This document shows, piece after piece, positions 45,046-60,697 of a DNA stretch of 64,000 nucleotides; the stretch's first letter is position 1, and every line of letters begins with the position of its first letter. Made by a program: the position numbers and the translations under genes. The DNA comes from Bryopsis sp. KO-2023 (lineage: Eukaryota > Chlorophyta > Ulvophyceae > Bryopsidales > Bryopsidaceae): the NCBI GenBank assembly GCA_030272585.1, contig BSYQ01000008.1, positions 5,084,001 to 5,148,000 of the forward strand, in the 5' to 3' direction. The notes beneath the pieces were generated by a model. That model searched no databases. It was not told where the DNA came from and saw only the letters and a program-made list of their open reading frames with translations.

Positions 45046-46654
45046 CACATACCAAAACTCGATTCAAACCAGTTGAGCAAAAATAGAACTCAGCGAAGGG
45101 TGGGAACGGGTGTCGCACTTCGAAGTTGACGGCCTCGTGATGGACAAACTGTCCGTCAGGTCCAGGTCTTTACACAACCAACCCCCTTTGTCTGTCGACC
45201 CCATTCTACCATCCCAAAAGTCCATTCAACACAACTTAATAACCCTCATCAGTAAAGCCACCAAAGGTTGCTGCATCCTTGGGGTCCAAACCCCCTCTAA
45301 ATATTCCCCGAATGCACACATCTCCACCAATTCTTTCCATTTCACTTCAGCCCTCGATCAGCAGAGATGCAATCTGCTCAGCCATCTACAAGCTCCACAA
45401 GAACTTGGATGCAGCTTTTCCTTACAGTAGGGTCCATGTGACTGGACAGCCCCCTGGTCAGCCCCCCCACACCAGATGTCAAAACATGGCCCTGATTTCA
45501 TAGCACACGGACTGAACCATTGCACTACACTGGATCACTATTGGATGAATGAACTCAACACGATTCAGAATATACTAAAAAAAGGGGGGTCGGATGCACA
45601 GTCAGATTATGAGTCACACATCACCCCACTTTCCCCATTCCCCCCCCAAGAATTAAGATTTCACACCTCTATCAAGGCCGACAGAATGACCTTCAACGTT
45701 GCCTCAGGAAGTTTTAGCACCACACCATCCAGCTTGGAGGACATCGTGACATGCAAAAGACTGTATGTAGTAAAGCTATTTGAAGGTCGTCCTTTTCCCT
45801 TTTCGCTGATATAAATTGAAAAAGTGGATAAATATCATCCAGGTGATGAATAAAGTTCTCAGGCAAGAAAAGCAATCAGCCCAACGACCATACACCCAAC
45901 AGTGTTTTCCATTCTAAGATTGAGAAGGTGATCTGCTCAGTATCATCTTGACCAAAAGTTGGTTTGGAGGCTAGAAACTTTCCATAAACCACCACAACAA
46001 CAGATGCACAACCTGAAACAGGCATAAATCCATAAAAAATATAATATTGTGCAATATATTAACTGTCCTCAGGGACTTGCTGTCAGGAAACACCTGGGGC
46101 ACCCTGAGTGCCAGCTCCAGACATTGCAGGCGCAACTGACCTACAGGAATCCCTGGTGAACACTCCTTAGGTCAAACATAAAAAGATCGCCCGCAGCTCT
46201 CCTTTTCCATCATCAGACAAATTCAGTTCCACACTGTCTTTCAATCCACTGCAACTTCATTGCATTAAACCTTGGGGTTCACTTAAAAGTCTCTGCTCAT
46301 CAAATCCTCGCAAGATACCACGTGAGGCGGGAGCCTCTGGATGGTATGCAGATTCCATAGCCGTTTGGAATAGGACTTCGTCCAAGGTGATATATTACTC
46401 ATGAATATATTTTGCCATGAGGGTCTTGAAACACACAAGATCACCAGTGATGGCTATGGATATGAGGTGTTGTTAGGTGGTGTGCAGTTCAAAATCGTAC
46501 CCAGTCCCTCACCAGTATCCATTGTTGCCAAGAAGCGTCTAGTCTGTAAAATTCCCCCAACTGTCATGAAAGGTACCACCCTGTCGATCCGCAACCCGAC
46601 CTCCAACGGCATCGGGAAAGAGCGAGCTGATATGTGGGATGCAATAATCTCAAA
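45046..46654. other. Region without a supported gene
   Basis: A plus-strand open frame at 45110-45430 and others are unrecognised, and their neighbours give no splice logic. I see no family motif. Confidence 0.35.
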
Positions 46655-46729
46655 CGTAATTCGACGAAACGTCATTCGACCAAATGTAATTCGACGAAAC
46701 GTTGGTCGACAAAACGTCATTCGACGATG
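46655..46729 (+). repeat. 15-bp minisatellite, five units
   Basis: Five consecutive 15-bp units with consensus CGTMATTCGACGAAA (46655, 46670, 46685, 46700 and 46715). Changes are concentrated at a few positions. The period is a multiple of three, so the plus strand reads as (NVIRR)n inside a frame starting at 46401, which is probably incidental. A short (CATAA)n run follows near 46808-46828. Confidence 0.8.
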
Positions 46730-46954
46730 TGATATGGATCCCGTCTGAGGGTGGAGTGCTGGAGGTATGCTGGAGGTGAATCATCTATCGTAGGCTATGT
46801 TGATCGAAGCATAACATAACATAACATAATTACACGCGAAGAAGCCACCCAGCTTCTATTGCGGAAAAATGTACACCAATGTGAACAGACGAATGTTTGG
46901 AACCAAAAAACAAACAAAAACAAAAAAAAACAAAAAAACACAGAGCATCAGGCA

Positions 46955-47374
46955 CTAACTGCCAGTAGACCCAAAACTACCCAAACCACGATCCGTAAGG
47001 GACAAAGAATCTGCAATAATTACTTGAGGAGTAACAATTTTTTCCAAAAGTAATTGAACCACCCTATCACCCGCTTTAATGTAAAAATCTTCAGAGGAGA
47101 AGTTAAAAAGAACCGCAATCAAAGAACCCCTATAGTCACTGTCAATAACCCCAGCACCCAGAAATAACTTGAACCTGGCACAGAGACCCGAACGAATTTC
47201 CAACCGACCATAATAACCTTGAGGGATTTCAACCGCCACACCCATATCAACCAGACCGTTATTCCAAGCTGGAATAACATAATCCTGGGGCGAGTAAAGG
47301 TCATAGCCCGCCGAACCCAAGGAAGCCCGAGTCGGAACTCGAGCAGCATCATGTTTAAGAAGAACCCGCAGCAT
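46955..47374 (-). CDS. dUTPase encoded in the LINE, 139 aa
   Basis: dUTPase converts dUTP to dUMP, keeping uracil out of DNA. All five motifs are present in order: ASLGSAGYDLYS (1), GRLEIRSGLC (2, with the catalytic-site Ser), GAGVIDSDYRG (3, with the conserved Asp-Tyr-Arg), GDRVVQLLLEK (4) and RGLGSFGSTG (5, the P-loop-like end). Length equals a single trimeric-type subunit. The ATG lies inside the last codons of the reverse transcriptase ORF (20-nt overlap, other frame), so translation could be by reinitiation or frameshifting. No stop or frameshift interrupts it. A dUTPase could protect the element's cDNA, as proposed for lentiviruses; here that is inference. Confidence 0.92.
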   Translation of the reverse strand: MLRVLLKHDAARVPTRASLGSAGYDLYSPQDYVIPAWNNGLVDMGVAVEIPQGYYGRLEIRSGLCARFKLFLGAGVIDSDYRGSLIAVLFNFSSEDFYIKAGDRVVQLLLEKIVTPQVIIADSLSLTDRGLGSFGSTGS

Positions 47375-49919
47375 TGTTCTCCCGAATACACAAGACAGCC
47401 CTCCGTAAGAGGAAAAAATCCTTCAACATACGTGCAACCTTAATCTGATCAACCCTATTGAAGAGAAAGAAAAGATTGCGACAACGGAAAAACTCTGACC
47501 AGCGAATACGCAAAAAATTATATGCCGGACACACATAAAGAAAATGGAACTCATCCTCCACTACCCCAAAACCACATACCCTGCAGAATCGTAATTCCCG
47601 CACCACAAGAGGATGTTGTAACCGACCCGAATCTACCTGAAGACCATGAACCCCCGCCCGAAAGGCACAATAAATTTTTCGCAGAGAACTTGTCGAAAGG
47701 ACAGAAAGGCAATCCAAGAATCGAATATTCCGTTTGATTTGACTAAAAAAATATCGAACATGGGACTTCTCCGACGAAAAAGTCAACCTCGAAAAATGAT
47801 TCTTAAAATTAGAAGACCACAGCCTAATATCAATAATGCTCTTTCCAGAAAAAGAAATTAAGTGCTCTTTCACCAAAGACTCAACCCTGACCACCCAAGA
47901 CGAACCACACCTATGTTCATCCAAAAGACTATTAAAAATAGCCTTAGATGGATGTTCCTCAGGAAGAGAAAAAAGTTTATTCCAGAATCTAAAAATTAGA
48001 CGCCTAAAAAAAAACTCTAAAGGGTAAGTCCCCATATCCGCATATAACACCTCCGTGGGAGCACGCCGAGGCAAATTTAAACAAAACCGTAAAAAAGCCA
48101 AATGAGACCGCTCAAGCGAATCCCTCTGTCCTTTAGTCAAAAACAAATACCAAATAGCACTCCCAAAATTTATTGAACCAAAAACGAATTGTTTAAACAA
48201 ATTATATTTAACCCGAGGATCTTCAATTTTATGTTTCGACAAATGACTATAAAGCAATCCAAGAGAAGAAGACATTTTACGACCAATATGTTGAAAGTGC
48301 GGTAAGAAAATGTTTGACCCAGTACCAAAAAAAACCCCTAAATAGCGAAAAGTTTTAGTAGCCGTTATAAAAGAATCACCAATCTGTACTCCATGAACAT
48401 TAGGAAAGTTAATCACCACCACACCCCTTTTCGAAACGTTCTCAGCAATCCCCCAACTAGCAGAACAACCCGCTAAAGCGTCATTAAGACAATTCAAATC
48501 TTCCGTATACTGAATCGGAATCATAGTATCATCAGCAAACGCTAACGCCGGAATACATACATTATCAAAAGAAATAGGTCTAATCCCAGAATGTTCAATA
48601 GCACGAATCAAATTATCATGATAAGCCTTATATAATTCCGGACTAAGAGGACAACCCTGACGTACCCCTCTACCTTGAATAAAATTATTCGAAACACCAG
48701 AAGTACATCGAACTCGAGATATAGCATTCGCATAAATAAAAGCCAAAACCTTCAAAATCTTGTCTGGCACCCCAGTCCTTGCTAACTCAAAAAAGAGATG
48801 GGGATGAGAAACTCGATCAAAGGCTTTTAATAAATCTAAGAAGATTAAAATTAACCCCTTCTTAGATTTTTTTGACAGAAAAATAAGAGCCCAAACCGAG
48901 AAGACAAAAAATTCCGGTAAGCAAAATTTACCAAAACCCCCTTGACAAACATGTCTAATCGTAGAAAAGGGATCTTGGACACGATTCAAAAGTACATAAG
49001 CAAAAAGCTTGTATATATGAGGACTAATAGTCAACGGCCTAAAACTGGAGGGATCAAGACGACTACCTTTGCCTTTATAGACTGGAACAAGTTCACCTAA
49101 TAACCAGGAAAATGGAACTGCTTCCTCTTGTAAACATCTAGAAAAAAGGGTAGATAGTACTTCACACCAAGCTAATCTCAGAGGCTCGCAATCATTTCTA
49201 AAGAGAGTAGATGGCCAAAGATCATGACCGGAAGCCCGACCATGTTTTAACTTCAAAATAGCACTATTAATCTCCTCAATCTCAACTGGCCTAGACAAAG
49301 AAAGTAATTGAGAAGGGGACATAACCACATCAGGAGGAAAAAACCCAGTAGAATCGGTTCGAAAATCCCTCAAATCACTCATAGGACTAAAAAAAGTTTT
49401 ATAATATTGCTCCCACTCAAGTAAGGAAATACAGTTTCTCTCACAACCAGAGCGATTTCGGGGATAAAAAAGGCGGAAAAAACGTTTGGGGTCCTCATAG
49501 TATAATGAGGTCATCCTTTTACCTTGAGAGGAAGAATACGCTTTCCTCTTAGTCCGCAGCAACGAATAAAACCGATTACGCAAAACCCGTGCATAATCTG
49601 ATCCACCATTAGTTCTGCAAGCACGACGGTAGACTTGGCGTGCATGATAACAGTCCCTATCAAACCAAGGTTGGCATCGAGAAGATTTCTGGGAGCCCCA
49701 TGTCAGTAAACTATCCACATGAGTCTTAAGAGCCAAAAAAGCCTCGTCAACTGTAGACGACTCCCGAATAGCTTGCAAAATGAGTGGCAATTTAACCGAA
49801 AAACCTTCCCAAAACCTATCAGGACTATCCTTAGACCAAATTACTCGCCGCTGTACACAACCACCCACGGCATCAATCAACCACCGTAAAGAAATCCACT
49901 GATCCACTGATCGAAGCAC
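47355..49919 (-). CDS. LINE reverse transcriptase (5'-truncated ORF2)
   Basis: An uninterrupted frame of more than 850 residues. The N-terminal part has the PWFDRDC(Y)xAR-type block found after the endonuclease in LINE ORF2s. The RT core follows: LLGELVPVYKGKG, FRPLTISPHIYKL, FLDLLKAFDRVSHP, GVRQGCPLSPELY and the catalytic LAFADDT, then the thumb-like KTFRYLGV. The C-terminus has CRVC(x9)HFLYVC, a CX2CX9HX4C knuckle. Endonuclease and any ORF1 are missing, so this copy cannot move on its own. The intact frame suggests recent insertion. Its stop is overlapped by the dUTPase start. Confidence 0.9.
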   Translation of the reverse strand: MLRSVDQWISLRWLIDAVGGCVQRRVIWSKDSPDRFWEGFSVKLPLILQAIRESSTVDEAFLALKTHVDSLLTWGSQKSSRCQPWFDRDCYHARQVYRRACRTNGGSDYARVLRNRFYSLLRTKRKAYSSSQGKRMTSLYYEDPKRFFRLFYPRNRSGCERNCISLLEWEQYYKTFFSPMSDLRDFRTDSTGFFPPDVVMSPSQLLSLSRPVEIEEINSAILKLKHGRASGHDLWPSTLFRNDCEPLRLAWCEVLSTLFSRCLQEEAVPFSWLLGELVPVYKGKGSRLDPSSFRPLTISPHIYKLFAYVLLNRVQDPFSTIRHVCQGGFGKFCLPEFFVFSVWALIFLSKKSKKGLILIFLDLLKAFDRVSHPHLFFELARTGVPDKILKVLAFIYANAISRVRCTSGVSNNFIQGRGVRQGCPLSPELYKAYHDNLIRAIEHSGIRPISFDNVCIPALAFADDTMIPIQYTEDLNCLNDALAGCSASWGIAENVSKRGVVVINFPNVHGVQIGDSFITATKTFRYLGVFFGTGSNIFLPHFQHIGRKMSSSLGLLYSHLSKHKIEDPRVKYNLFKQFVFGSINFGSAIWYLFLTKGQRDSLERSHLAFLRFCLNLPRRAPTEVLYADMGTYPLEFFFRRLIFRFWNKLFSLPEEHPSKAIFNSLLDEHRCGSSWVVRVESLVKEHLISFSGKSIIDIRLWSSNFKNHFSRLTFSSEKSHVRYFFSQIKRNIRFLDCLSVLSTSSLRKIYCAFRAGVHGLQVDSGRLQHPLVVRELRFCRVCGFGVVEDEFHFLYVCPAYNFLRIRWSEFFRCRNLFFLFNRVDQIKVARMLKDFFLLRRAVLCIRENNAAGSS

Positions 49920-51550: not shown

Positions 51551-51885
51551 TCCAGGACATTGTTGGTCTGGGGTAAAGGAAGTGTTGCAGGTTTTGATTG
51601 AATGGGAACAATATTCGGGAATTGGTTTAAATTTTTCCAAAACGATTCTGATGGTTTTTTTTTCAGCAGCTTATGTCTTCTTCTTTTCATTTTCATGAGC
51701 ATTCTATACCAATTTCAGAGGACCATACATATTTAGGAATTCGGTTATCATCAAGTTCTCATCATCCTTTTTTGTCGCATATTGATTATGTTTTAGCACA
51801 GTGTCGGAAAGCAATGGGGTTTGTTTTGTCGCGTCTTTTTGCTCTGAAAATTGAGGATCCAAAAGTAGCATACAATCTTTTTAAG
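51551..51885 (+). mobile_element. LINE fragment 2, 5' part
   Basis: The 5' side of a LINE inserted in a dynein intron, then split by the gypsy. A frame covering about 51673-51890 reads ISEDHTYLGIRLSS and KIEDPKVAYNLFKVYV, matching the thumb region of the dUTPase-bearing LINE (FRYLGVFF, KIEDPRVKYNLFKQFV). The junction with dynein intron sequence is at about 51550. Confidence 0.8.
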
Positions 51886-51890
51886 GTGTA
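51886..51890 (+). repeat. Gypsy target-site duplication, left (GTGTA)
   Basis: GTGTA directly precedes the 5' LTR and recurs directly after the 3' LTR at 59775-59779. Removing one copy and the element restores the LINE frame (FKVYV|LGSIGY). Confidence 0.95.
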
Positions 51891-52112
51891 TGTAACAGGT
51901 TGTAGCGAATCAGAAAGGCTACATCATGTCAAACCATATCTTGTCAAACTTAGATGTTCTGAGTGACAGCTAGCATCACTAGCTAGCTAGCTGCTGGATG
52001 CTAGTTGTCAAACCCACAGCACGAGTGGGTTAGGGTATATATGTTGTTGAGAACATCTTGTAAGCAGTATTATCCTTCGGGTTATTCCTTTCCGTTCTGT
52101 CCATTCGTTACA
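51891..52112 (+). repeat. Gypsy 5' LTR, 222 bp
   Basis: Starts TGTAACAGG and ends CGTTACA. Contains a (CTAG)n palindromic stretch near 51975-52000 and a TATATATG motif near 52040 that could serve as a TATA box. Matches the 3' LTR base for base as read. Confidence 0.95.
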
Positions 52113-52375: not shown

Positions 52376-52876
52376 ATGGATCCACCATTCCCTCTGGACC
52401 TCCCTGAACCTCCTACCGCTGCGGAGTTACACCCACTGGCTAACGTGAACCCACCTATCGACCCGCTACCGGACTTTCAAGTCAACAACCCATTGCTGCC
52501 AGCGGTGCTGCAAGGACAACCGCCTAGGCCGCAAGTGCAGCTCAGCTACCACGTGGATATTGTGAACCGTTGGGGAGATCCTGTTCCGGATATACCTCGG
52601 GAGTATTTAGAGGTTGTACCGTTCCACAACCACTACGAACTCTACCTTGGAGGACATCGAGGTGCAGGTGGTCCTGCCGTTACCTACGTTCCGTGCCGCA
52701 ATCCTCATTGCGCAGAGTTGGCCCGACACGTGAACGAATTGAGGCAGCACGGCTACTATCCAGTCCCTTACCACGGACACTTTAGATTGCAAGTGGGAGA
52801 CGTAATCCGATACATACCGTGCCTTGATCACGCTTGCCACCGTTTGTACCAATATCTCCATGGCCGACCACAATGA
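52376..52876 (+). CDS. Gypsy leader ORF with a duplicated Cys/His module, 166 aa
   Basis: Lies between the primer site and gag, and ends 17 nt inside gag in another frame. The N-terminal 60 residues are Pro/Leu-rich. The C-terminal half holds two related modules: PFHNHYELYLG with YVPCRNPHCAEL, and PYHGHFRLQVG with YIPCLDHACHRL. Each has HxH followed about 20-25 residues on by PCxxxxC, a plausible metal-binding unit. I do not recognise the family. Position before gag is unusual for Ty3/gypsy elements. Clean frame and internal repeat structure argue that it is translated. Role unknown: RNA binding or an accessory regulator are both possible. Confidence 0.65.
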   Translation: MDPPFPLDLPEPPTAAELHPLANVNPPIDPLPDFQVNNPLLPAVLQGQPPRPQVQLSYHVDIVNRWGDPVPDIPREYLEVVPFHNHYELYLGGHRGAGGPAVTYVPCRNPHCAELARHVNELRQHGYYPVPYHGHFRLQVGDVIRYIPCLDHACHRLYQYLHGRPQ

Positions 52877-53933
52877 GCAAGGGCAACATGGGGGGGACCC
52901 AGCTGCAGCCTTCGACCTACAAGCTATGCAGCAAACGATACTACAGCTCCAAGGCGAACTGCAACATCTACGACAGACGGCAGACCACGCAGAGGCTAAC
53001 AGGAATGCTCAGCTACAACAAGCGATTCACCAAGTGGTGCAACAGCAGCAACAGCCGGCCCCTGCACTGAATAGGGCTCGTGCTACTCCACCAGAAACCT
53101 GGCATGGAGAGCCAAGGGATTTGCCGTTAAACGAATGGCAAGTCCAGCTTCAAACTTATTTCGAAGTGACGGCTACGCATGACCCACAGCAACAGGTGTT
53201 GGTTGCTGCAGGGAACCTGAGAGGTGCAGCAGGAACCTGGTGGCGTGCTCGGTTTGAAGCGTCGGTGGCTGGAGATAGAGCATTGCCGGGCACGTTGGAG
53301 GCTCTCATTAGAGACCTACGGCAACAATTCGGAAGAGCTCACGAAAATCGAAATTTCCGAAGGGATTGGGCGCAACTGCGACAAGGAGAGACATCCGTGG
53401 CCGACTATACGCATAGGTTCCGTCGCCTCATGCTGCAAATAGAGGACAGCAATCCCGGGGAGAAACTCTTCCGTTATTTGGAGGGGTTGAATGTGCGATT
53501 GCGAATGAAGGTGGAGGTAGAAGCTCCGCGAGACCTCGAGCATGCTATGGAGTTAGCGGCCACATGGGAAGGACCACAGGAGTATTACAGGCGAAGCCGA
53601 GAAAGGGGCAGAAGCGGGAGCCGTCGAAGAGAAGAGTCTAAGGGACGAAGTAGCAGCAGACACAGGAGTGGCAGCCGAGGAAGGAGCAGGGACCGGGACT
53701 ACTCCTACGACTATACTCCTGCTACATCTCAGCACTACAGCGGAGACCGAATGGAAATGGGGAGCACCCAACATAAACGAGTCCACTGGGCGGACCAGAA
53801 ACGAAGAAGACCAAGGTCAGGAACCCCAGTACCAAATCGATCTCGCAGCAACAGCCGTGATCGACCCGAGAGACGAAGATGTTTCCGTTGTGGGAAGATG
53901 GGCCATTTGAAGGCCCAATGCCGGGAAAACTAA
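52860..53933 (+). CDS. gag: Gypsy Gag polyprotein, 357 aa
   Basis: Structural protein of the virus-like particle. ATG at 52860 (MADHNEQGQ). A Gln-rich coiled segment (residues about 25-80) is followed by the retrotransposon-gag domain, with PETWHGEP, NEWQVQLQTYFEV, GAAGTWWRARFE and a LRQGETSVADYTHRF block. An Arg/Ser-rich basic region and one CCHC zinc knuckle follow (CFRCGKMGHLKAQC), just before the stop. The last 55 nt overlap pol in the -1 frame. Confidence 0.9.
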   Translation: MADHNEQGQHGGDPAAAFDLQAMQQTILQLQGELQHLRQTADHAEANRNAQLQQAIHQVVQQQQQPAPALNRARATPPETWHGEPRDLPLNEWQVQLQTYFEVTATHDPQQQVLVAAGNLRGAAGTWWRARFEASVAGDRALPGTLEALIRDLRQQFGRAHENRNFRRDWAQLRQGETSVADYTHRFRRLMLQIEDSNPGEKLFRYLEGLNVRLRMKVEVEAPRDLEHAMELAATWEGPQEYYRRSRERGRSGSRRREESKGRSSSRHRSGSRGRSRDRDYSYDYTPATSQHYSGDRMEMGSTQHKRVHWADQKRRRPRSGTPVPNRSRSNSRDRPERRRCFRCGKMGHLKAQCREN

Positions 53934-56900
53934 AATGGCCGGGAACCGGAGGGGTTCCTGGCCTGCGACTTTTGGCGAAAGAGGACAGTAGTAAAGCAGA
54001 GGTGGCCCGGTGTAGCCACTCTTATGAGGCGGCTGCAGAATGGCATGTCGCAGAAGACCAAGGACGAAAGAGTGGACGAGGACAAAGTGTAGCCTCACCA
54101 CAAGTGACGGGAGCAGTGCCAGTAGTGGCCACTCGCGTGGAAGAAGACAAATTGCATAATCTGGAGTCAAGTGTAGCCGGATGTGCGGGAGTGAAGAATC
54201 TGCAGAAAGAAGAGAAAGAAGTGCTGTCAAGTAGCAGGCGGACCCAAGAGGAGCCTGTTGATAGCAGTAGCAGGCGGACCCAAGAGGAGCCTGTTGATAG
54301 CAGTAGCAGGCAGACCCAAGAGGAGCCTGATGTATGTGTGGTTCCACGAGAGGAACTAGGAAATTTTTCCAATGGGAGTATCCAACAGGAACCCACAATA
54401 TTTGGAAGTGGATGGACACTGGAGGTGATGGAGAAGTTTTGTACTAGGGGTTCTCAAGGAGGCCTGGAACCTGTCAGACCTATGAGGCTAGGGAATGCCA
54501 CCAATGCTGAAAAAGGGATGTTGGTGACTGTGGGAACAGTGGATGGTAAAGAAGCCAAAATACTGATCGACTCTGGAGCCTCGAACAACTTCATATCCAA
54601 AGAATGGTTGGTTAAAAACCAAGTGACCCCAAGCGAGTCGCAGCATCCCACGAAAGTACTTCTTGCTGACGGAGAGACTGCGGAATGTAGCAGTCGCCAG
54701 CTGGAAGCTACGGTCTCACTAGGGCAGTTTACCTCCGTGGAGGTGCTACATGAGATCACCATGGGCAACTATGACCTTATCCTAGGAATGACCTGGTTGC
54801 AGCAACATAACCCCGTCATTGATTGGAAAAGAAAGATGGTCACCCTTCTACAAAATGGGTGCCGACACCGCCTAAAAATGCGACGCTGTGACCCCGAGTT
54901 GCAGCAAGAAGGACCGGAGTTGCTGTCAGCATTACAAATGCGGGCAGTAATAAGAAAAGGAGAGCCTGCTTTCTTAGTCCAAGTGTTTGCAGCAAAAGAG
55001 GATAACCTACTAGCAGGAGCTCCTAAATGCCTGGAAAAGAAAGAGGAATCACAACGATTGGAGCAGCAAATTAGGAGTGAGTTTGGCGAATTATTTCGGG
55101 ATGAGTTACCAAGCGAGCTACCCCCGGACCGAGGCGTACGTCATAAGATAGAGTTAGTGGAAGGGGCCGTCCCGCAGAAGAAAGGGTTGTATCGACTCAG
55201 CATCACGGAGCAGAAAGAACTGAAGAAGCAACTCGTTGAGTTGCTTGAACAAGGCTTCATTCAACCCAGCAAGTCGCCATGGGGAGCACCGGTGATTTTT
55301 GTTCCCAAGAAGAATGGCAAGCTAAGGATGTGCGTCGATTATAGAGCCCTAAACAAACTCACTATTAAAAATCGCTACCCCATCCCAAGGATAGAGGACC
55401 TCATGGACCAGGTACAAGGGTGTAAGGTCTTCAGTAAGATTGACCTTTGTTCTGGTTACCACCAAGTACGTCTCGAGCCTGAAGATTGTGAGAAAACGGC
55501 ATTCCGCACGCGCTATGGACTCTACGAGTACGTGGTGCTACCCTTTGGGCTCACAAACGCTCCTGCCACGTTCATGAATACTATGCACCATGTGTTGCAC
55601 GAGTATTTGGACGTTTTCTGTGTTGTCTATTTGGATGACATACTAGTTTACAGTCGGAGTTGGCGGGAACACAAAGGGCATCTACGGAAAATCTTCCAGG
55701 TGCTACGGGAGCAGAAACTCTATGTTTCTAACAAGAAGTGTGAGATTGGCAATACCAAGGTGGAGTTCCTCGGACATGAGATCAGTGCTTTGGGAGTTGG
55801 AGTATTACAGGAAAAGATCCAGGTGATTCGGGAGTGGCCTGAACCTCAAACATTAAAGGAGCTCCGATCGTTTTTGGGCCTAGCTAATTACTACCGCCGT
55901 TTTATCAAAGGCTTTTCTGCCATAGCTCAGCCCTTGACCCATTTACTCAAACAAAGCACAGAGTGGAAGTGGGATGAGGCTGCGACTACTGCAATGGCGA
56001 GTTTGAAGGAGGCCCTCGCCAACGCACCAGTCTTGTTGATTCCTAATCCAGCGCTCAAATTTGAGGTGACCACCGATGCCTCCGACCATGCAGTAGGAGC
56101 GGTGCTTACCCAAGATCAAGGACATGGACAACAACCTGTGGCCTATGAAAGCCGGAAACTTAATCCCGCGGAATTAAACTATGCTACCCATGAAAAGGAG
56201 CTTCTTGCTATAATCCATGCTTTGAGGACTTGGCGACATTACCTCGATGCTCAGGAGTTTGTGATCTATACTGATCACGCGCCATTGCGTTATCTACAGA
56301 CACAACCAAATCTTTCCAAGCGCCAAGCTCGCTGGATGGAGGTGTTGCAGGAGTTTAAATACGAAATTAAGTATCGTCCAAGAAAGGAGAATGTAGTAGC
56401 CGACGCGCTAAGCCGTGCCACACACCAAAAGGTCCGAAAGGAGGAGCTCTTTGCCACAGTAGCAGGTGCTACCGTCTTCCAGGAAAAGGTGAAGAACGCA
56501 TATATGGAGGACCCGCTTTGCAACACTTTAATTGTTGCAGCACACAAGCCACCGCATGTGCGGTGGGATGGAGTCCGGTTGTGGCGGCACGTCGCTGGAA
56601 CCTGGAAATGGTGGATACCCAGGAGTATGCAAGCAACCGTTTTACAGGAGTGTCATGACTCTGCCTTAGCTGGACATTTTGGGCGTCGCCGTACCCTTTT
56701 TCGGGTGCAGCAACACTACTTCTGGCCCAAAGTATCGGCAAGTGTGCAGCGGTATGTGGCTACTTGTTTGGCTTGTCAACGCAATAAACCCTCTACTCAA
56801 AAACCGATGGGTTTGTTGCAACCTCTTCCTGTTCCAGATGAACGTTGGCAAGACGTGGCGTTAGACTTCGTGGGTCCATTACCCACCACTGCTGCAGGCC

Positions 56901-57937
56901 ACAATTATCTCCTGGTGGTGGTAGATCGCTTTAGCAAAATGCTACATCTGATCCCCACACAGCAAACTGTCACAGCAGCCGAGGTGGCACGACTTTTCTT
57001 TGACCACATAGTGCGGCTCCATGGCATACCTTGTAGCATCACTTCTGACAGAGATGCACGGTTCACGGGAGCGTTTTGGAGAGCCTTATGGCAACTTTGT
57101 GGCACTACCTTGGCTATGTCGAGTGCCTACCACCCAGAAACTGATGGCCAAACCGAACGTTCTAATCGGACAGTTCAAACTGTGCTAAGGAGTTATGTGC
57201 AGCCTACTGGATGCGATTGGGATTTACACCTTTCTGCTGCGGAGTTTGCCTATAATTCGAGCATTCACGAGTCTACCGGATTTTCTCCTTTCTACCTCGT
57301 CTATGGCTATCAGCCTAGCCTCCCAATTGATCGTGCTGCTCCTACTCTCTCGCCTGCTGCCGATGACTGGTGGGCTACGTGGACTACCGCCCTCGTCGCG
57401 GCCCGGGCTTGCCTCTTCCGAGCTCAGGAGCGTCAGCGGAGGACCGCTAACCGTCTTCGGCGGGGAGGCCACTACTGTCCCGGCGATAGAGTCTTTCTTT
57501 CTACGCACGATTTGAAGCTGTCACCAACGTTGAGTCGCAAGCTGACAGCAAAGTATTGTGGGCCTTTCACCATCTCTGAGTGCATTTCGGACGTCACTGT
57601 GAGGCTGGACCTACCTGAAGCATTTGGGAAGTTGCACAATGCGTTCCATATCTCTAAACTAAAATCAGCACAAGAGGAGGAACCACATGAATTCCCTGGG
57701 AGAAAGCAACTGCTGCAACCCGGACCAGAGTTGGTGGATGGAGAGGAAGAGTATGAGGTGGAACAAATTTTAGACAAGAGAATATCCAGGGGACAAACCC
57801 AGTACTTGGTAAGATGGAAAGGATATGATGTTTCGGAGGATTCATGGGAACCGGAAGCGAACTTGGAAAATGCGGAAGAAAAGGTGGCGGAGTTCGAAAA
57901 GGGGTGTACCAAAAAGAGACGTCACCGGAGGCGCTAG
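53879..57937 (+). CDS. pol: Gypsy Pol polyprotein with chromodomain, 1352 aa
   Basis: Domains in order: a Ser/Glu-rich linker with three 12-residue repeats (about residues 117-151); aspartic protease with LIDSGASNNF (about 228); reverse transcriptase with KNRYPIPRI, SKIDLCSGYHQ, LPFGLTNAPATF and catalytic YLDD (about 583); RNase H with TTDASDHAVGAVL (about 731) and YTDHAPL; integrase with a HHCC zinc finger (925-970) and D,D,E residues near 995, 1056 and 1092 (TDGQTERSN); and a chromodomain near 1290-1345 (YEVEQILDKR, YLVRWKGYDVSEDSWEP). The chromodomain probably steers insertion to particular chromatin marks. Frame is -1 to gag with 55 nt overlap; no obvious slippery heptamer is seen there, so expression may use frameshifting or its own ATG. 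No inactivating change seen. Confidence 0.97.
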   Translation: MFPLWEDGPFEGPMPGKLKWPGTGGVPGLRLLAKEDSSKAEVARCSHSYEAAAEWHVAEDQGRKSGRGQSVASPQVTGAVPVVATRVEEDKLHNLESSVAGCAGVKNLQKEEKEVLSSSRRTQEEPVDSSSRRTQEEPVDSSSRQTQEEPDVCVVPREELGNFSNGSIQQEPTIFGSGWTLEVMEKFCTRGSQGGLEPVRPMRLGNATNAEKGMLVTVGTVDGKEAKILIDSGASNNFISKEWLVKNQVTPSESQHPTKVLLADGETAECSSRQLEATVSLGQFTSVEVLHEITMGNYDLILGMTWLQQHNPVIDWKRKMVTLLQNGCRHRLKMRRCDPELQQEGPELLSALQMRAVIRKGEPAFLVQVFAAKEDNLLAGAPKCLEKKEESQRLEQQIRSEFGELFRDELPSELPPDRGVRHKIELVEGAVPQKKGLYRLSITEQKELKKQLVELLEQGFIQPSKSPWGAPVIFVPKKNGKLRMCVDYRALNKLTIKNRYPIPRIEDLMDQVQGCKVFSKIDLCSGYHQVRLEPEDCEKTAFRTRYGLYEYVVLPFGLTNAPATFMNTMHHVLHEYLDVFCVVYLDDILVYSRSWREHKGHLRKIFQVLREQKLYVSNKKCEIGNTKVEFLGHEISALGVGVLQEKIQVIREWPEPQTLKELRSFLGLANYYRRFIKGFSAIAQPLTHLLKQSTEWKWDEAATTAMASLKEALANAPVLLIPNPALKFEVTTDASDHAVGAVLTQDQGHGQQPVAYESRKLNPAELNYATHEKELLAIIHALRTWRHYLDAQEFVIYTDHAPLRYLQTQPNLSKRQARWMEVLQEFKYEIKYRPRKENVVADALSRATHQKVRKEELFATVAGATVFQEKVKNAYMEDPLCNTLIVAAHKPPHVRWDGVRLWRHVAGTWKWWIPRSMQATVLQECHDSALAGHFGRRRTLFRVQQHYFWPKVSASVQRYVATCLACQRNKPSTQKPMGLLQPLPVPDERWQDVALDFVGPLPTTAAGHNYLLVVVDRFSKMLHLIPTQQTVTAAEVARLFFDHIVRLHGIPCSITSDRDARFTGAFWRALWQLCGTTLAMSSAYHPETDGQTERSNRTVQTVLRSYVQPTGCDWDLHLSAAEFAYNSSIHESTGFSPFYLVYGYQPSLPIDRAAPTLSPAADDWWATWTTALVAARACLFRAQERQRRTANRLRRGGHYCPGDRVFLSTHDLKLSPTLSRKLTAKYCGPFTISECISDVTVRLDLPEAFGKLHNAFHISKLKSAQEEEPHEFPGRKQLLQPGPELVDGEEEYEVEQILDKRISRGQTQYLVRWKGYDVSEDSWEPEANLENAEEKVAEFEKGCTKKRRHRRR
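54227..54331 (+). repeat. 36-bp tandem repeat inside pol
   Basis: Three units encode SSSRRTQEEPVD twice and then SSSRQTQEEPD. Only a few bases differ between units, so the repeat arose recently by slippage or unequal exchange. It lies in the linker before protease, where length change should be tolerated. Confidence 0.85.
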
Positions 57938-59552: not shown

Positions 59553-59774
59553 TGTAACAGGTTGTAGCGAATCAGAAAGGCTACATCATGTCAAACCATA
59601 TCTTGTCAAACTTAGATGTTCTGAGTGACAGCTAGCATCACTAGCTAGCTAGCTGCTGGATGCTAGTTGTCAAACCCACAGCACGAGTGGGTTAGGGTAT
59701 ATATGTTGTTGAGAACATCTTGTAAGCAGTATTATCCTTCGGGTTATTCCTTTCCGTTCTGTCCATTCGTTACA
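59553..59774 (+). repeat. Gypsy 3' LTR, 222 bp
   Basis: Reads identical to the 5' LTR and is followed by the target duplication GTGTA at 59775-59779. Confidence 0.95.
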
Positions 59775-60697
59775 GTGTATGTTTTGGGCAGTATAGGATA
59801 TGGGTTTCCTATTTGGGGTCCATTCCTAACAGTTTCTCAGTGGCGTTTGTTGGAAGCAATTCATCTCCAGTTTATGAGAAGTATCCTCCGTTTGCCTCGA
59901 TATACGCCAAAGGAGGTTCTGTACGGGGAATTAGGGTGTTATCCATTAGAATTAGCACTTTGGTCGCAATTGTGCCGATATTGGAACAAGTTGGTTGGGT
60001 TATCAGTTGATCGATTGCATGGAAGATTGTTTTGTTGGGGTTTTGATCAATATCACGCATCTCGATCTTCTTGGTTTGGGCGTATTTTGGGTTTTTTCAG
60101 ACGGTTTTGGCCGGAGAAGATATTTTCTTCTACGACTTTGGTGGACATTTCGGAATTTCAGCGTCGTTATAAAGCTATGCATGCTGAACATGTTTTCGGT
60201 TCATCTGCATCTCGAGTTATATCTTGGTATCGGCATATTAAGTTTTCCCTCAGATTTGAACGGTATTTGACAACTTTAAAACCAACTTCTCTTCGGGTTT
60301 TCTTTACTCGTTTTCGTTGTGGTATTCATTTCTTGGAAGTGGAAGTGGGACGATATAATGGTGTACCAAGGGAAAACAGGATTTGTCGGTTGTGAACGGC
60401 ATTTTCTTTTTGAATGTCCTTTTTATTCTTCCTTTCGTTCTTTGCATTCAGATGTTTTTCGATGGGCTAATCCCAAGGATCTTTTTAGTAGGGTGCCATC
60501 GGGCAAATTAGCTTTAGTTATCAGCAAAATGGCTTCAATACGTTCAGCAGGTTTACAATCCTAAGGTTTTTGTTTTGTTTTTGGTTTTTTTTGTTTTTCT
60601 CTTTCTTTTCTTTCCTTTTTGTCTTTGTTCCAGCATCATAGAGGGTGATGGCTCTCTTTTGCTGTGGGTTGTAATTATGATTATGATTATGATCTGT
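59775..60697 (+). mobile_element. LINE fragment 2, 3' part
   Basis: Continues the LINE interrupted by the gypsy: LGSIGYGFPIWG, RYTPKEVLYGELG and LFTRFR-like blocks parallel the dUTPase-bearing LINE. The frame ends at CRL near 60395. The zinc-knuckle end continues in another frame as RHFLFECPFY, so a frameshift sits near 60390. The coding part ends at 60564, a T-rich 3' UTR follows, and the element ends with an ATTATG repeat (about 60672-60693). The dynein intron resumes at about 60698. No dUTPase follows this RT. Confidence 0.85.

Follow-up and report, generated by a model that had tools for sequence, protein, structure and literature searches.

A multi-copy LINE family of the green alga Bryopsis with a dUTPase gene behind the reverse transcriptase

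Does a dUTPase belong to a LINE, or does it only lie beside one? The question is raised by a locus of Bryopsis sp. KO-2023, found in a stretch of 64,000 nucleotides of contig BSYQ01000008.1 (below, the window). dUTPase prevents uracil from entering newly made DNA, LINEs are copied into nuclear DNA at the site of a nick, and Bryopsis is a giant multinucleate alga. The reading that we favour, with a probability of about 0.78, is that the locus belongs to a young, multi-copy LINE family that carries, as its third gene, a dUTPase of the cellular trimeric type, which would be translated from its own start and would hydrolyse dUTP during target-primed reverse transcription.

The window copy and the LINE families of the genome

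The window holds a 5'-truncated copy of a LINE family, here called family A, between 11-bp target-site duplications. Its features are:

46812..49907, minus strand: family A LINE copy, its 5' end at the end of the endonuclease domain, target-site duplications on both sides; the matches of 10 other copies begin at 49900, 7 bases in from this 5' end
46801..46811, plus strand: target-site duplication TGATCGAAGCA at the element's 3' end
49908..49918, plus strand: target-site duplication TGATCGAAGCA at the element's 5' end
46812..46829, minus strand: (TTATG)n tail at the element's 3' end, of a type identical to that in L017
47355..49907, minus strand: open reverse transcriptase (RT) part of ORF2, the endonuclease missing here (ORF listing, Pfam)
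46955..47374, minus strand: dUTPase ORF of 139 aa with motifs I to V (ORF, Pfam, fold model, motif check)
47355..47374, minus strand: 20-nt overlap between the start of the dUTPase and the end of ORF2
46830..46954, minus strand: 3' untranslated region of the element

The bounds of the element are placed at 46812 and 49907 because the duplication adjoins the (TTATG)n tail. As the original prediction had it, a five-motif dUTPase follows an open RT frame, both on the minus strand; the RT stop codon ends at 47355, and there are 20 nt from the dUTPase ATG, in the other frame, to the end of this stop. The RT ORF had also been described as long and intact. It is open, but the copy is 5'-truncated and the GTG taken for a start, at 49919, lies outside the element. 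The open part consists of a linker and an RT with the motifs LDLLKAFD, RQGCPLSP and FADD (RVT_1, E 9.7e-20, Pfam), and its C-terminus is, by eye, Cys/His-rich. The window copy is a truncated copy without ORF1 and endonuclease and with an intact dUTPase ORF; we call these parts missing because they are present in two of the 10 longer copies, those whose 5' parts were read (L039 and L040).

Two neighbouring features of the window were noted by eye. Short diverged repeats of the type AACGTAATTCGACGA lie at 46640-46730, near the 3' end of the LINE, and a Ty3/Gypsy-like element has its gag and pol frames at 52806-57937, the end of pol being chromodomain-like.

A protein search of the Bryopsis sp. 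KO-2023 genome finds the same 155-codon open dUTPase frame at 42 places, and a DNA search for the 3' end of family A gives at least 41 matches of 97-100% identity (40 of 58 candidates scored), which represent 40 loci, two rows being one interrupted copy. The matches are dispersed across many contigs. The dUTPase stands next to the RT in many copies with the same arrangement and not in the window copy only. An uninterrupted ORF2 of 1098 codons is present at no fewer than 5 places (54 of 492 candidates scored). A full-length copy is about 5.4 kb long, with 47-bp repeats, ORF1, an in-frame TAG, an ORF2 coding for endonuclease and RT, the dUTPase and a (TTATG)n tail. One such copy, on contig C6, is made up of L039 and L017 (~5.4 kb by coordinates); it has 9.2 units of the 47-bp tandem repeat and the endonuclease joined to the RT (Exo_endo_phos, E 3.2e-9, Pfam) in L039, a 12-bp target-site duplication, GTTCGAGTCTTT, and the (TTATG)n tail. 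In a second full-length copy, L040 with L010, we found no target-site duplication, and the 3' end is without a tail; duplications together with a (TTATG)n tail are present in two of the three copies examined (TGATCGAAGCA and GTTCGAGTCTTT). ORF1 of family A gives weak coiled-coil matches alone, below the Pfam cut-offs, and protease and integrase domains are absent from the element ORFs in Pfam scans of the window copy and L039. The 5' ends vary among the copies. With target-site duplications, varied 5' truncations and a simple-repeat tail, the family A element bears the marks of a LINE.

The PF00692 profile has 83 matches genome-wide, which include families A and B, the remnants C and D, Gypsy dUTPases, fragments and the host gene. 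In family B (L004-L008), whose RT is 51% identical to that of A, the dUTPase follows the RT in the same order. This order is kept in two remnants as well: D (L044) is a single truncated copy with an RT C-terminus, a stop, 47 nt and then the dUTPase, and C (L047) has a 75-aa RT end followed by a dUTPase without its first residues. The LINE family with a dUTPase that had been proposed from one copy is thus a fact of this genome: the dUTPase is a fixed part of family A and is common to at least one other LINE family. L043 was considered as a family C RT with dUTPase, but the upstream RT piece is the terminal part of an element of family E, and the locus was not counted.

Using the family D C-terminus as query we obtained 345 candidate LINE RT C-termini and scored 150 of them. 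A dUTPase lies within 1 kb downstream on the same strand at 45 of these (40 of family A, 4 of B and 1 of D, by our own sorting), so the pairing is not due to chance. The remaining 105 (types E, F, G and D2 among them) lack one over this distance, so a LINE does not need the enzyme in order to move. Families E and F, with RTs 33-35% identical to A (RT search, 54 of 492 candidates scored), showed no dUTPase in one copy each, read with the 3' side; in families G, H and F2 (one copy each) and D2 (two copies) no dUTPase frame was seen (L067-L070, L072).

A LINE fragment without dUTPase elsewhere in the window had been taken as a hint of recent gain or loss. This interpretation is not supported. Over 207 aa the fragment at 59667-60395 shares 37% identity with A and belongs to another family, G, and no G-type place among the 150 scored of 345 candidate C-termini has a dUTPase within 1 kb; the fragment at 51673-51966 is a mid-RT piece that stops short of the RT end.

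The dUTPase protein, its conservation and its translation

The window dUTPase ORF matches PF00692 at E 2.9e-32 (Pfam), and all five motifs are found, motifs I to V starting at window positions 47311, 47194, 47152, 47071 and 46990. Among proteins of solved structure, cellular dUTPases come closest in sequence (3p48, E 3.3e-38). An AlphaFold2 model of a single protein chain, built from a 45-row alignment, has a mean pLDDT of 95.7, and its best match in the PDB is a dUTPase (E 7.6e-16, TM 0.94). On its five motifs and predicted fold, the protein is assigned to the trimeric dUTPase type (PF00692).

Motif II is a variant, IRSGLC versus PRSGLA in the host DUT, and the form xRSG[LIV]C is found in families A, B and D and in one of the two C copies. 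Hydrolysis of dUTP by the family A protein is likely but not certain, because motif II has I and C instead of P and A. The variant also speaks for another explanation, namely that the dUTPase is kept for a non-catalytic role, in regulation or partner binding, of the kind described for some retroviral dUTPases (passages of PMC4531489). However, the window protein keeps all eight invariant columns of the 45-row alignment (D25, R61, S62, V76, D78, D80, Q107, G135) and the whole of motif V, and we consider such a role improbable.

The coding sequence is conserved by selection in family B. For the pair L004 and L005, the dUTPase has a dN of 0.050 and a dS of 0.288, and the RT, with the alignment trimmed by 30 codons at each end, a dN of 0.053 and a dS of 0.313; three diverged pairings of B dUTPases give a dN/dS of 0.16-0.24. 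Purifying selection acts about as strongly on the family B dUTPase as on the RT, with a dN/dS of ~0.17 in the L004/L005 pair. The two C copies, both decayed, are near relaxed (dN 0.080, dS 0.122). In family A, among the 30 best matches of 40, the dUTPase is unbroken in all 30 loci, and the small counts of variants are 6 nonsynonymous in 314 sites and 5 synonymous in 103 sites. The last 1590 nt of the RT have indels in 5 of the 30 loci, with 15 nonsynonymous variants in 1234 sites and 15 synonymous in 353 sites, many loci being truncated. Comparison of A with B is near saturation both for the dUTPase (dN 0.44, dS 2.28) and for the RT (dN 0.49, dS 2.23). On this divergence the dUTPase is judged to be old in the A and B lineage, because dS is ~2.2-2.3; yet D has a dUTPase and its relative D2 is without one.

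How the dUTPase is translated was approached from the junctions. The overlap with the RT had been taken to suggest co-expression by reinitiation or frameshifting. In family A the same junction string is shared by 29 of 30 loci, so the 20-nt overlap is fixed there, and a frameshift is possible on paper, the RT ending in TCT TAA and the dUTPase being in +1. In four of the five family B loci, however, the dUTPase ATG lies downstream of the RT stop (by 26 nt in L004), as it does in the single D copy. The overlap is not conserved between families, and frameshifting is not the general route, because the B and D junctions have the ATG beyond stops. Moreover, all five B loci have an in-frame TAG, preceded by a T-rich tract, immediately before the dUTPase ATG, which rules out an RT-dUTPase frameshift fusion as general mechanism. 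In the fifth B locus, L005, the RT stop is lost through a short deletion while the dUTPase ORF is kept; compared with L006, ~23 nt are gone between two AG dinucleotides before the dUTPase, and the RT stop with them (C2:8298520-8301900, minus strand).

Separate initiation of the dUTPase fits families B and D, and for B the argument is that the in-frame stop directly precedes the ATG. The dUTPase would then have an initiation of its own on the LINE RNA: ribosomes that terminate at the RT stop could reinitiate, or a subgenomic or spliced RNA could serve as template. A spliced subgenomic RNA in place of reinitiation is suggested by family B, where the T-rich tract ends in GTAG right before the ATG in five of five loci and resembles the 3' terminus of intron 2 of the host DUT gene. 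The 3' regions of the elements are T-rich in general, though, and A and D are without an equally clear site at the ATG; splicing as the route is in our view unlikely, but it keeps an appreciable share of the probability.

A second unusual junction lies further upstream. In families A and B, ORF1 and ORF2 are in one frame with a single TAG between them (L039:4696-4698, L058:801-803), and in family A the first Met of ORF2 follows after 188 residues, beyond most of the endonuclease. The single in-frame stop and the late Met suggest stop readthrough at this TAG.

Origin and history of the LINE dUTPase

The host DUT gene (L041) has two GT-AG introns, and its joined exons equal BSKO_00224 at 100%. 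The LINE dUTPase ORF is intronless, and LINEs can make retrocopies; both facts agree with the idea that a processed copy of the host dUTPase landed beside one LINE, or was carried by it, and was then amplified as a functionless passenger. Against this, the LINE dUTPases are just 44-48% identical to the host DUT, a clade of LINE and host dUTPases is rejected in a 22-row tree (p-AU 0.0082), the dUTPase is common to two diverged families, and its dN/dS in B (~0.17-0.24) is like that of the RT. We therefore see very little chance for a passenger, and a host DUT retrocopy was rejected as source of the LINE dUTPase on identity, on its separate place in the trees and on the rejected joint clade. The grouping with the host's nuclear gene, which the original prediction had named as the outcome that would speak against its view, is not what the trees give.

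In an 89-row dUTPase tree, which has few columns (147), a single clade (99/92) holds all five LINE dUTPases, and A pairs with D inside it (99/89); the host DUT and the two Gypsy dUTPases are placed elsewhere. The nearest neighbour of the clade is P0004, at a weak support of 83/78. The LINE clade is found again in the 22-row tree (99/97), where the order inside the clade, including A with D, is not settled. Five dUTPases from sequence collections (P0157-P0160 and P0162), 286-311 aa long and thus longer than the host DUT protein, are 64-69% identical to the host DUT over ~80% of its length.

Viral relatives are 34-48% identical (191 loci with a relative); with regard to a viral origin, the 80 viral loci kept of these 191 contain no match to the family A RT at E 1e-3. 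Among the precomputed domains of metagenome RT relatives (74 matches listed) there is no PF00692, which says little because the dUTPase is here a separate ORF. The genome also has Gypsy elements with a dUTPase: in the family L001-L003 (C6, C7, C8) it lies between protease and RT, and in a second family, L052, next to the protease, with the RT outside the piece read. The dUTPase of L001-L003, which shares 58% identity with the host DUT and clusters with it, may thus be a separate capture from a host gene.

Within the LINEs, the RT and the dUTPase may have different histories. In a tree of 40 RT rows, without named Zepp/L1 references, A and B are sisters (100) and A, B, E and F form one group (100). 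In the tree of RT C-termini, the families with a dUTPase show no clustering (274 of 500 shuffles are as low), and their union in one clade is rejected (p-AU 9.7e-5; 10 rows, 186 columns, long branches for E and G, the C row 35% filled). The RT C-termini are 49% identical between A and B, 28% between A and D and 48.5% between D and D2, whereas the dUTPases are 55% identical between A and B and 53% between A and D. Since the RT identity of A and D is far below that of A and B while the dUTPase identities are alike, the history is probably either one early gain with several losses or a dUTPase end that was exchanged later among LINE families.

The second possibility, a mobile 3' cassette gained once and passed among LINE families by template switching or recombination, would account for these identities, for the rejected RT clade and for the grouping of A with D in the 89-row tree. 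On the other side, a clade of the A and B dUTPases is not rejected (p-AU 0.124), the smaller tree leaves A with D open, the RT C-terminus tree has the long branches and the sparse row mentioned, D is represented by one truncated copy and C by an RT end of 75 aa, and the early gain with losses fits as well. We hold the cassette to be a serious candidate that falls short of even odds.

A possible role of the dUTPase and comparison with known retroelements

In retroviruses and LTR elements, the capture of a dUTPase has been interpreted as adaptive where cDNA is made at a high dUTP/dTTP ratio. According to parts of the retroviral literature, a retroelement dUTPase lowers dUTP, so that the cDNA escapes uracilation and cutting by base-excision repair (PMC4531489). 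That a LINE needs a dUTPase despite the host DUT gene we infer by analogy from these retroviruses (same source, in part). The LINE enzyme would hydrolyse dUTP near the site of target-primed reverse transcription and so spare the element cDNA the incorporation of uracil and the cuts of base-excision repair, for instance in nuclei that do not divide. A bolder version of the favoured reading has an independently initiated third-ORF sanitiser of the nucleotide pool, a cassette that moved between LINE families of one genome, and the exclusion of uracil as a selectable step of target-primed reverse transcription; as a whole we offer it tentatively, with the odds somewhat against it.

A dUTPase in LINEs, selected about as strongly as the RT, suggests that uracil in cDNA can limit LINEs too, at least in Bryopsis. 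Related LINE families with and without dUTPase in one genome form a natural comparison for such a limit. Among non-LTR elements, Dualen has extra domains, other than a dUTPase. In the bicistronic LINE SART1, ORF1 and ORF2 are linked by a UAAUG stop-start coupling, an arrangement of neighbouring ORFs similar to that at the Bryopsis RT-dUTPase junction. SART1 couples ORF1 with ORF2, whereas the Bryopsis junction joins RT and dUTPase with a spacing that varies between families.

From what parts of the literature report, dUTPase domains are present in LTR retrotransposons and retroviruses, namely fungal Gypsy, rotifer Juno, Vesta and TelKA, planarian Gypsy, lentiviruses and ERVL (PMC2864245, PMC5408684, PMC6431247, PMC5753468, PMC4531489). 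These are, like the Bryopsis LINE, retroelements with a dUTPase domain; as far as these passages go, it lies inside element proteins there, whereas the Bryopsis element, of non-LTR type, devotes a separate third ORF to it. The Bryopsis Gypsy dUTPases lie outside the LINE dUTPase clade. In the titles, abstract beginnings and some passages of the open-access literature we found no non-LTR element with a dUTPase, which agrees with the original prediction, where lentiviruses and some LTR retrotransposons were named as carriers and no well-described non-LTR family with this arrangement was known. TRAS and Jockey with a viral RNA helicase are, by passages of PMC6338049, non-LTR elements with an extra enzyme as well, although a different one; the TRAS helicase is described, in part of PMC5563155, as part of ORF2, unlike the separate 3' ORF of the Bryopsis dUTPase.

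Zepp and Zepp-like L1 elements are, in the sections of PMC8226300 consulted, endonuclease-RT LINEs of chlorophytes, as is family A, and the word dUTPase is absent from the main text of that paper. The Zepp-like elements are described there as clustered; the Bryopsis family E is clustered too, whereas family A is dispersed. Among the matches listed, family E is clustered in one stretch per contig on several contigs (for example C14:553008-590879, C7:3187996-3224805, C9:5512136-5556526 and C3:2760185-2835213), comparable to the centromeric LINEs of Zepp type in other green algae (PMC8226300), and by this analogy it is possible that the clusters are Bryopsis centromeres.
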